From positions 1-63,027 of the forward strand of contig MWCL01000006.1 of the NCBI GenBank assembly GCA_002070025.1: 63,027 bases of DNA, given 5' to 3'. The stretch's first letter is position 1; each line of letters begins with the position of its first letter. This document shows positions 24,190 through 32,641 of the stretch, piece after piece. The notes under the pieces were generated by a model. That model had not been told where the DNA came from. It worked only from the letters and a program-made list of their open reading frames with translations, and made no database searches. The position numbers and the translations under genes are program-made. This DNA comes from Spirochaetes bacterium ADurb.Bin215 (GTDB lineage: Bacteria > Spirochaetota > Spirochaetia > Treponematales > Treponemataceae).

Positions 24190-24201
24190 GGAGATTGAGT
24201 G

Positions 24202-24516
24202 ATGGATACAAAATTCAAGATCCGGAAGGACGACACGGTTGAGCTTATTGCCGGCAAAGACAAGGGAAAGCGCGGTGCTGTAGTTCGCGTGATCCGCGAC
24301 AAGGACCGTGTAATAGTCGCCGGTGTAAATCTTGTTAAAAAGGCCATGCGGAAGAAAAGTCAGCAGGATCGCGGCGGAATCGTCGAGATTGAAGCTCCGA
24401 TTCACATTTCCAATGTCATGATTGTGTGCAAGAAATGCGGGCCGACAAGAATTGGATACAAAATTGACGGCAGCAAGAAAATCCGTGTATGCCGCAAGTG
24501 TGGGGAAGCACTGTGA
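24202..24516 (+). CDS. rplX: 50S ribosomal protein L24
   Basis: 104 residues. An assembly initiator with an N-terminal KOW motif ([20 protein letters not shown]). The C-terminal part has two CxxC pairs (VCKKCG and VCRKCG), the zinc-ribbon form of L24 found in some bacterial lineages and absent from E. coli L24. The TGA stop overlaps the rplE ATG. Confidence 0.95.
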
Positions 24517-29287: not shown

Positions 29288-29653
29288 ATGGCTCGAATTG
29301 TGGGAGTCGACCTCCCTAACAAACATGTCAATATTGCATTGACCTACATCTATGGAATTGGCCGGTCCTCTGCGGATGCAATTTGCGAAAAAGCAAAGAT
29401 TGATCCCAACCGGATGATTAATGATCTTGATCAGGATGAACTTGCGGCCATACGTGCGCTTCTTGATTCAGAGTACAAGGTTGAGGGACGCCTCAGGACC
29501 GAGATCGGTCTCAATATCAAGCGTCTTATGGATATTGGCTGTTACCGGGGCCTCCGGCACAGAAAAGGTCTTCCTGTCCGTGGACAGCGAACACGGACCA
29601 ATTCTCGCACGCGCAAGGGTAAGAAAAAGACCGTTGCCGGCAAGAAGAAGTAA
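29288..29653 (+). CDS. rpsM: 30S ribosomal protein S13
   Basis: 121 residues. A head protein contacting P-site tRNA. It begins [39 protein letters not shown] and the basic tail are diagnostic. Confidence 0.97.
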
Positions 29654-29678: not shown

Positions 29679-30059
29679 GTGGCAACCGTAAAAAAACGGA
29701 AAGAAAAGAAAAGCGTTTACGAAGGTAATGTCTACATCCAGGCTACATTCAACAATACTATCGTAACGATTACCGACCTTAAGGGAAATGCCATTGCATG
29801 GGCATCTTCCGGCGGGCTTGGTTTTAATGGTGCTAAGAAGTCAACGCCGTTCGCGGCCCAGACTGTTGCTGAAACTGCAGTTCAGAAGGCCCTCACCTAT
29901 GGTCTTCGCGAAGTGCATGTATTTGTAAAGGGACCCGGTGTCGGACGTGAATCCGCTGTTCGCTCTCTCGGAGCGCTCGGCTTGAAGGTTCGGTCCATCA
30001 GTGATGTTACCCCGATTCCCCATAACGGCTGCCGTCCCCGCAAGACCCGGCGTATCTGA
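29679..30059 (+). CDS. rpsK: 30S ribosomal protein S11
   Basis: 126 residues from GTG 29679 with GGAGGAA upstream. It sits on the platform near the E site. [16 protein letters not shown] and [16 protein letters not shown] are family signatures. Confidence 0.97.
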
Positions 30060-30073
30060 CAGAGGAGAGAGAA

Positions 30074-30709
30074 ATGGCTAGATATACAGGACCCCTTTGC
30101 CGGCTTTGCCGGGCGGAGCAAAAGAAACTGTTTCTCAAGGGAGACCGGTGCAAGTCGGACAAGTGTCCGATCAACCGCAAGCGGGCAATGCCCGGGAAGG
30201 ATCCCAAGGCGAGAACTGGAAAGCGCTCTGACTACGGAGTACAGCTCAGGGAAAAACAGAAACTCAAGAGGATGTACGGTATGCTCGAGAAGCAGTTCCG
30301 TATTTTCTTTGACCGCGCGCTGCGCATGTCCGGTATTACCGGCGAAAATCTTATCGGTCTGCTTGAACGCCGGCTCGATAATGTTGTTTACCGGATGCAC
30401 TTTGCCGTTAACCGCAACCAGGCGCGGCAGATTGTACAGCATGGGCATATCCTCGTAAACGGCAAGCACGTTAACATACCCAGCTATCTGGTAAAAGCAG
30501 GAGACGTTATCGAAGTAAAGGAAAACAGCAAAAAACTTGGTGTAGTCAAGGATGCGATGAAGGAACTTTCAAAGTCCGGAACCTATCCCTGGCTCAATGT
30601 TGATGCTGATGCCCTCAAAGGAACCTTTGTTTCCATACCGCACCGCGCGGATGTAACCGATAACATCGACATCAAAGAACAGCTCGTGGTCGAGCTCTAT
30701 TCCAAATAA
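30074..30709 (+). CDS. rpsD: 30S ribosomal protein S4, zinc-binding form
   Basis: 211 residues. It nucleates 30S assembly. The N-terminal zinc site uses C9, C12, C26 and C31, which E. coli S4 has only in part. The S4 RNA-binding domain has [20 protein letters not shown]. It lies between rpsK and rpoA, the usual alpha-operon position. Confidence 0.97.
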
Positions 30710-30720
30710 GAGGAGTTCGA

Positions 30721-31776
30721 ATGGCCCGAAAAAATCTGCTAAAAGGATTCAAGAAGCCGAAGGGACTTACCTTCGAACAGGACGAAGCAAATCCTGGGTA
30801 CGGAAAGTTCGTGGCTTATCCTTTCGAAACCGGTTTTGGAACAACCGTTGGAAATACCCTGCGGAGAGTTTTGCTCTCCTCAATCCAGGGTTATGCCATT
30901 TCCGCCGTCAAGATCAATTCTTACGACGCGGATGGTGTACCCCACATAATTTCCAGCGAGTTTGAAACAATCCCGCATATTGTTGAGGATACTCTGGAGG
31001 TGCTGAACAATCTTAAACAGATTCGTTTGCGCCTTCCCGAGGATGTAGAACAGGATACCTTCCTCTTTGAATTCAAGGGCCCGGTAACCGTAACGAGCGA
31101 CATGTTCGCCCGCGACGAACAGCTGGAAATTACCAGCAAACCGGCGCATGTGTTCACCATGATGGATGGCGGCCATGTTGAATTCGAAATTCAGGTTGAT
31201 TACGGACGCGGGTATGTTCCTGCCGAAGTAAACGAACGGTACATAGAAATCGTGGGAACCATACCGATGGATGCAATTTATTCACCGGTTGTAAAGGTAA
31301 AATACGAAATCGAGCCGTGCCGTGTGGGCCAGCGCAATGACTACGACAAACTGATTCTGGAAATTTGGACCGACGGAACCATTGAGCCCGAAAATGCGCT
31401 TGCCGAAGCGGCCAAGATAACCAAGGATCATTTTTCAATCTTTGTAAACTTTAATGAAAATGAAGTTGACAAGGATGACGATTATGACGAGGAAGATGAA
31501 CGGGTACGGCAGCTGCTGAACACCCCGGTGGAAGAGCTCGAGCTTTCTGTCCGGTCATCAAACTGTCTCAAGAACGCAAATATACGGACGATTGGCGAGC
31601 TTACCAAAAAAACCGAGGACGACATTGCCAAGACACGAAACTTTGGCAAGAAGAGTCTCCAGGAAATCAGGGAAAAACTGCTTGAATGGAATCTCGGTCT
31701 CGGCATGACTGACTACAGTCATTTGAAAAACTCGATCAAGTTGCCCAAGCAGAAGGAAGAAACAGATGAAGCATAA
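30721..31776 (+). CDS. rpoA: DNA-directed RNA polymerase subunit alpha
   Basis: 351 residues. The N-terminal assembly domain has [18 protein letters not shown]. An acidic linker ([14 protein letters not shown]) leads to the C-terminal domain with [20 protein letters not shown], the helix-hairpin-helix that binds UP elements and activators. It overlaps rplQ by 11 nt. Confidence 0.98.
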
Positions 31777-32404
31777 AAACGGCTTTAATCCGCTTTCGCG
31801 AACCGCATCGCATCGCCGTGCCATGCATCGCAATATGGTTACCTCTCTTTTCAAATATGAGCGTGTTACAACAACAAAAGCCAAAGCGCTTGAAGTACGG
31901 AGAACCGCTGAAAAGCTCATTACCCGCAGCAAGGTTGACACCGTTCATAACCGCCGCCAGGCAGCGAAGTATGTACAGGACAAGGCAATTCTCGCCAAGC
32001 TCTTTACCGAAATCGGACCCCGCATGAAAGACCGCGCTGGTGGATACACCCGCGTTCTCAAACTCGGTTTCCGTGAGGGTGACGCAGCGGAAGTTGCAAT
32101 CCTCGAACTGGTAGACTACAAGCTTGAGGTGGAAGGCGACAAGGGCGAAAAGAAGGCCAAAAAGGCGCCGGCCAAGGCAGCTGAAGAAAAGAAACCGGCG
32201 ACGAAGAAGCCCGACGCAGACAAGAAGCCAGCGGTCAAGAAGCCTGCGGCGAAAAAGACTGCGGAAGACAAGGCCCCCGCTGAAAAGAAGGCTCCAGCTG
32301 CAAAAAAACCGGCAGCCAAAAAGGCTGACGGAGAAAGCAAAGCCGCCGAACAAAAAGATGCTGAAGCTCCGGCAGAAAAAGCATCCGGAAGCACGGAGGA
32401 GTAA
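31766..32404 (+). CDS. rplQ: 50S ribosomal protein L17 with long Lys/Ala/Pro-rich tail
   Basis: 212 residues. The first about 122 are ordinary L17 ([20 protein letters not shown] and [19 protein letters not shown]), a protein near the tunnel exit. From about residue 125 there is an 85-residue tail of Lys, Ala, Pro and Glu, in repeats such as KKPAAKK, similar in make-up to histone H1 tails. Most L17 proteins stop near residue 120-130. The tail is probably disordered. The start lies inside rpoA, so the two are translationally coupled. Confidence 0.96.
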
Positions 32405-32407
32405 ACC

Positions 32408-32584
32408 ATGTCTAAAGCACATCGTGGAAAAGGTATTCGCGGCAATCCGAATCACGGACGCGGCGTTTGTCCGGTATGCAAGCGTGAAGGTGTTAAAATT
32501 TTGTATGAGCAGGAAGTTGACGGCGCAAAAGCTGTTATCTGTAAAACCTGCAAGGCAAAGCTCAAGAACGCAAAGAGCGCCTGA
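32408..32584 (+). CDS. Small basic zinc-ribbon protein, unrecognised
   Basis: 58 residues from ATG 32408, 3 nt after the rplQ stop, with GGAGG at the rplQ end as ribosome site. The sequence starts MSKAHRGKGIRGNPNHGRG and contains two pairs, C21-x2-C24 and C45-x2-C48, spaced as in zinc ribbons, with a basic end (KTCKAKLKNAKSA). Codon usage resembles the ribosomal genes and a strong terminator follows. I do not recognise the family. Size, charge, zinc pairs and position at the end of the ribosomal cluster suggest a ribosome-associated or rRNA-binding role, which is an inference. Confidence 0.8.
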   Translation: MSKAHRGKGIRGNPNHGRGVCPVCKREGVKILYEQEVDGAKAVICKTCKAKLKNAKSA

Positions 32585-32613
32585 TCGGGCGGGATAGCAC
32601 GTAACCGCTTATG

Positions 32614-32641
32614 AAAACCGTCCCTAACCGGACGGTTTTTT
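32614..32641 (+). terminator. Terminator of the ribosomal supercluster
   Basis: AAAACCGTCC-CTAACC-GGACGGTTTT, a 10-bp stem with T tract to 32641. Confidence 0.9.

Follow-up and report, generated by a model that had tools for sequence, protein, structure and literature searches.

The stretch of DNA analysed here (hereafter the window) spans 63,027 nt, positions 1 to 63,027 of the forward strand of contig MWCL01000006.1 in assembly GCA_002070025.1, and belongs to Spirochaetes bacterium ADurb.Bin215, which is classified by GTDB as Bacteria; Spirochaetota; Spirochaetia; Treponematales; Treponemataceae. It contains an alpha operon that ends in a small open reading frame of 58 codons (Table 1). The encoded protein, MSKAHRGKGIRGNPNHGRGVCPVCKREGVKILYEQEVDGAKAVICKTCKAKLKNAKSA, has a mass of 6.2 kDa and a pI of 9.98, with 14 lysine and arginine residues vs 4 aspartate and glutamate residues, and CxxC occurs in it twice, at residues 21-24 and at residues 45-48. 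Its reading frame starts exactly 3 nt after the rplQ stop codon, and a probable ribosome-binding site within the 3' end of rplQ is spaced 8 nt from the ATG. The hairpin that closes the operon consists of 11 pairs with a 6-nt loop and a U-run, and folds with an energy of -21 kcal/mol (z = -6.0); a simple terminator scan did not call it, probably since the stem absorbs the U-run. A first-pass annotation of the letters alone had described a basic, 58-residue gene with two CxxC pairs, 3 nt behind rplQ and ahead of a terminator, and our analysis agreed with it on each of these points. The neighbouring bL17 has a C-terminal extension, rich in Lys, Ala and Pro and about 85 residues long (window positions 32140-32404), which is shorter in the Treponema pallidum copy.

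Table 1. Features of the window discussed in the text.
Feature	Coordinates	Strand	Basis
uL24, separate gene	24199-24516		
rpsM, alpha operon	29288-29653		ORF reading
rpsK, alpha operon	29679-30059		ORF reading
rpsD, alpha operon	30074-30709		ORF reading
rpoA, alpha operon	30721-31776	+	ORF reading
rplQ (bL17), directly upstream neighbour of the 58-residue gene	31766-32404	+	ORF reading
GGAGG, probable ribosome-binding site, within rplQ 3' end	32395-32399	+	read from sequence
Gene for the 58-residue protein, spirochaete family without earlier description	32408-32584	+	ORF reading, alignments, AlphaFold2 models
Intrinsic terminator hairpin closing the operon, 3' of the 58-residue gene	32613-32640	+	folding energy

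Relatives sharing 53-82% identity over almost the full length were recovered from 35 of the 39 related genomes searched, the window's own genome excluded. Median dN/dS was 0.17 (43 pairs with dS < 1.2), and nucleotide diversity was threefold higher at third than at second codon positions (0.60 vs 0.20). The presence of relatives in 35 genomes, the low dN/dS and the third-position excess together exclude a chance reading frame; the ORF is a real gene under strong purifying selection.

Distribution of the family and its gene neighbourhood

A profile search of spirochaetes had been suggested by the first-pass annotation, which regarded the protein as possibly lineage-specific and recognised no family for it. 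Using a broad profile of the family (A2) on a sample of 248 genomes of the class that had passed a 90% completeness filter, we detected the family in 190 of these near-complete genomes and in 80 of 99 genera, almost always as one copy per genome. Every match listed from a phylum-wide sample fell inside the same class or closer, and no clear member was present in 56 genomes from other classes of the phylum, where the three best weak matches were other ribbons, one of them (L216) the C-terminus of uL24. A scan with one genome per species yielded at least 181 confirmed relatives, and the best 80 of these at least 181 carried spirochaete titles or plain 'bacterium' titles of metagenome-assembled genomes (MAGs). 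Neither Pfam nor NCBIfam returned a family at or above any curated cut-off. Within the phylum, these sequence searches confine the family to the class Spirochaetia, and the reference libraries searched do not contain it, in line with the first-pass annotation, which had recognised no family and considered a lineage-specific protein. Within the class, the gene was found in no sampled genome of Borrelia (family f7) and was also missing from scattered other genera of the 248-genome sample. A hidden copy devoid of cysteines behind rplQ in Borrelia was ruled out, with rny lying directly next to rplQ there.

The gene immediately upstream was rplQ for 100 of 121 distinct family genes, with spacers mostly of 0-23 nt or small overlaps, and a terminator-like hairpin occurred at most 90 nt downstream in 82 of the 99 rplQ-linked relatives with sufficient flanking sequence vs 29 of 99 shuffled controls. 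The alpha operon of the window's order thus ends with the 58-residue gene. Universal adjacency to rplQ was considered and rejected: it appeared in 120 of 122 loci of a sample biased to close relatives, and the figure became 100 of 121 with deeper families included. In 18 genomes from deeper families of the class, the neighbours read included no rplQ, and unrelated genes stood there instead. Since these copies stand elsewhere, the rplQ link is a trait of the order and not of the family, and it is insufficient alone as proof of function. The first-pass annotation had named absence downstream of rplQ in relatives as an outcome that would refute its ribosomal reading; such absence holds in the deeper families, whereas the adjacency is kept within the window's order. 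At four loci of deeper families (L251, L257, L267 and L077), the gene recurrently lies just before that of a multi-pass membrane protein resembling an M48-type peptidase.

Conservation, predicted fold and comparison with ribosomal proteins

Among 111 distinct members, seven positions never varied (M1, K3, R6, G7, C21, K30 and K46). The N-terminal basic tail, residues 1-20, reads MSKAHRGKG...GRG and contains two further near-invariant positions, R18 (110/111) and K8 (102/111). Behind it, the ribbon cysteines occupy positions 21, 24, 45 and 48. Structural prediction, another check that the first-pass annotation had proposed, gave two AlphaFold2 models (mean pLDDT 82) with a predicted beta-hairpin at residues 29-37/40-45 and a predicted C-terminal helix at residues 46-57, where the first cysteine pair precedes the hairpin and the second lies where the hairpin ends and the helix begins. 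Sequence comparison with the PDB gave no solved structure matching the protein, and no fold search gave a specific match (the best Foldseek E was 0.8, and the best VIA-align Z, 4.3, belonged to a FYVE domain). LUC7 and Rad50 gave weak sequence matches and were set aside, as these covered fragments only. Some members in Treponema and in Spirochaetaceae MAGs (L033, L034, L052 and L074) have long Ala/Pro/Glu-rich C-terminal tails, the longest of about 115 additional residues.

Three of the four cysteines are lost together in part of the family. C24, C45 and C48 have disappeared jointly, with C21 kept, in six distinct sequences and in the lineage of family f22; the lineages concerned are T. pallidum and its genus and families f17, f14 and f22. 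In these members CPVC is replaced by CPVTG, and ICKxCKA by ISKxGRA or a similar motif. Both uL24 and bL28 likewise occur in cysteine-bearing and cysteine-less forms in genomes of the class. Makarova and colleagues reportedly described, in 2001, repeated cysteine loss among known zinc-binding ribosomal proteins, and if the 58-residue protein is ribosomal its repeated joint loss would be one more case of zinc-ribbon decay among such proteins. At the loci compared (L228 and L249 for uL24; L165, L169 and L170 for the 58-residue family; L203 and L207 for bL28), cysteines have been lost from uL24 and the 58-residue protein in the genus of T. pallidum, where bL28 retains its full set of four; families f14 and f17 show the loss in each of the three proteins.

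Of the ribosomal ribbons compared, the C-terminal ribbon of uL24 was the best profile match. The two share CxxC/CxxC pairs around a hairpin of similar length, and both exist in cysteine-bearing and cysteine-less versions in the phylum; they differ in that uL24 has a KOW domain before its ribbon, where the 58-residue protein has its 20-residue basic tail. The 58-residue protein may have originated as a paralogue of this ribbon that gained a new N-terminal tail, an origin that we put forward tentatively and that is compatible with a ribosomal function. Profile-profile comparison (hhalign) gave a score of 25.3 and a probability of 76%, against scores of at most 14.8 and probabilities below 3% for bL28, bL36, bL38 and the uS4 N-terminus. 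None of 150 column shuffles with the cysteines fixed reached this score (mean 11.7, best 18.8), and the uL24 ribbon among the weak matches from other classes points the same way. However, unrelated ribbons (L215, L217, L219 and L220) scored equally well or better in the profile search, 3 of 150 shuffles reached the score of a comparison restricted to cysteine-less forms, and the uL24 family PF17136 gave no Pfam match for the protein. A split-off uL24 C-terminus was rejected, as the window's uL24 retains its own ribbon. We regard the relationship, which is based on profile similarity, as a lead in which a duplication of the ribbon is conceivable.

Other known ribosomal proteins were tried and rejected. 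The small ribosomal protein bL28 has a CxxC...CxxC motif that is likewise lost in some lineages, but its cysteine pairs flank the basic loop, whereas the basic stretch of the 58-residue protein is N-terminal; a replacement for bL28 or a divergent copy of it was dismissed on an hhalign probability below 1%, with a separate bL28 in the same genome, and the protein fell below the Pfam cut-off of the bL28 family PF00830. Profile comparisons for a relative of bL36 or of the zinc-bearing N-terminus of uS4 were negative, and bL36 and uS4 are both present in the window.

A parallel in kind is bL38. The ribosome structure of Borrelia burgdorferi revealed this previously unannotated protein as bb0162 (PMC10618245). 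We located its gene in a Borrelia genome (L131:8432-8599), with 8fmw chain Ai as the confirming match, and found relatives in 232 of the 248 class genomes sampled, among them the genome of the window. Despite this class-wide presence, bL38 has no Pfam match and stood unannotated before the Borrelia structure. Like the 58-residue protein, the bL38 of Borrelia and Flavobacterium is small, basic and lineage-restricted, and it had no annotation before a ribosome structure showed it (PMC10618245). It is, however, a different family without profile similarity (probability about 2%); since both proteins occur in the same genomes they are not the same, which rejects orthology, and Borrelia itself has bL38 and lacks the 58-residue gene. 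The sole solved spirochaete ribosome found in our searches was that of B. burgdorferi. Because Borrelia lacks the gene, this structure cannot display the 58-residue protein, and for the same reason the Borrelia ribosome is unfit as a stand-in for that of treponemes.

The Treponema pallidum member and the likely function

One genome of the same family has the gene order rpsK-rpoA-rplQ-family gene-grpE-dnaK, and we take it to be that of T. pallidum. In that species TP0213 is L17 and TP0216 is DnaK (PMC5015957), and this matching order identifies the family member as TP0214. By sequence and gene order TP0214 is a direct orthologue of the window's protein, although it lacks three of the four cysteines found there. 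In a 2016 proteome TP0214, labelled 'uncharacterized protein, 7 kDa', ranked first among all detected proteins with a spectral abundance of 19.6, ahead of the ribosomal proteins L34 (13.1), S18 (12.5) and L17 (9.4) (PMC5015957). A later report repeats this top rank, treats TP0214 as a miniprotein of unknown function, and includes it among 68 such miniproteins screened for antimicrobial potential (PMC9200625). A deeper proteome from 2023 places it outside the highly abundant set and names it a candidate antimicrobial peptide (PMC10600179). The two proteomes thus disagree on its abundance, and spectral counts are unreliable for proteins this tiny. The TP0214 transcript is listed at 310 and 830 in the two conditions, with rabbits exceeding culture by log2 1.28, and all genes of the ribosomal operon shifted in the same direction; the authors set the end of that operon at TPANIC_0213 (PMC8525777).

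Our preferred explanation, to which we assign a probability of about 0.6, makes the 58-residue protein a structural component of the ribosome that is specific to one lineage, the class Spirochaetia. Its compact body, sitting on the surface of the ribosome, would be the CxxC/CxxC ribbon, in which a short helix caps a beta-hairpin, and its invariant basic tail would thread into a groove of the rRNA; in the window's order, the protein would be produced together with bL17 as the product of the final gene of the alpha operon. Ribosome binding, the subunit, zinc binding and rRNA contact are inferred, and several observations favour the ribosomal reading. The family is present in most of the class, almost always in single copy, its gene closes the alpha operon across the window's order, and its basic tail is invariant. 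The joint loss of three cysteines parallels the cysteine switches of uL24 and bL28 in the class, and TP0214 contributes its top rank in 2016 and a transcript change shared with the ribosomal operon. Set against these are the absence from Borrelia and other lineages, the unrelated neighbours in the deeper families, the 2023 proteome and the lack of a fold match between the protein and solved ribosomal proteins. Since Borrelia and several other lineages do without the gene, the protein is dispensable to a spirochaete ribosome. The databases and literature searched held no ribosome structure or ribosomal proteome from a spirochaete bearing the gene (including no ribosome structure from T. pallidum), and a search of a paper on spirochaete signatures found no mention of the protein (PMC3726837). 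The suggestion of the first-pass annotation, a ribosomal or ribosome-assembly protein, has accordingly gained indirect support from the operon end, the conservation, the basic tail, the cysteine loss and the TP0214 data, with membership of the ribosome itself still an interpretation of these.

The main competitor, which we consider appreciably less probable, is a non-stoichiometric ribosome-associated factor, acting in assembly, hibernation or translation and bound to rRNA through its basic tail and ribbon. The same operon, charge and conservation data fit such a factor too, its patchy absence in the class would suit an accessory role, and so would the lower abundance of TP0214 in 2023. The first rank of the same protein in 2016 argues for a structural component instead, as do the short basic tail, conserved to an extreme degree, and the joint cysteine loss, both typical of structural ribosomal proteins. 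Because the operon also includes rpoA, two genes upstream, we weighed a role in RNA polymerase, as a small subunit or a regulator; this enzyme is known to have small zinc proteins. Yet the rpoA link exists only where rplQ is linked too, and the deeper families have no recognised RNA polymerase gene among the neighbours read, which makes this an improbable reading. Least credible is a secreted antimicrobial miniprotein, since the listing of Tp0214 in a miniprotein screen (PMC9200625) and as an antimicrobial-peptide candidate (PMC10600179) may be accounted for by small size and basic charge alone, no signal sequence is apparent in the protein, and its gene sits in a ribosomal-gene operon and occurs in most of the class, including many MAGs from varied habitats.

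More probably than not, the family constitutes a hitherto unnamed bacterial ribosomal protein that most Spirochaetia possess and Borrelia and some others lack, that exists in cysteine-bearing and cysteine-poor forms, and that counts TP0214 as a member. If this is true, a whole bacterial class, including the agent of syphilis, would have an extra ribosome protein, and TP0214, top-ranked in one proteome and proposed as an antimicrobial peptide, would gain a concrete and testable role.
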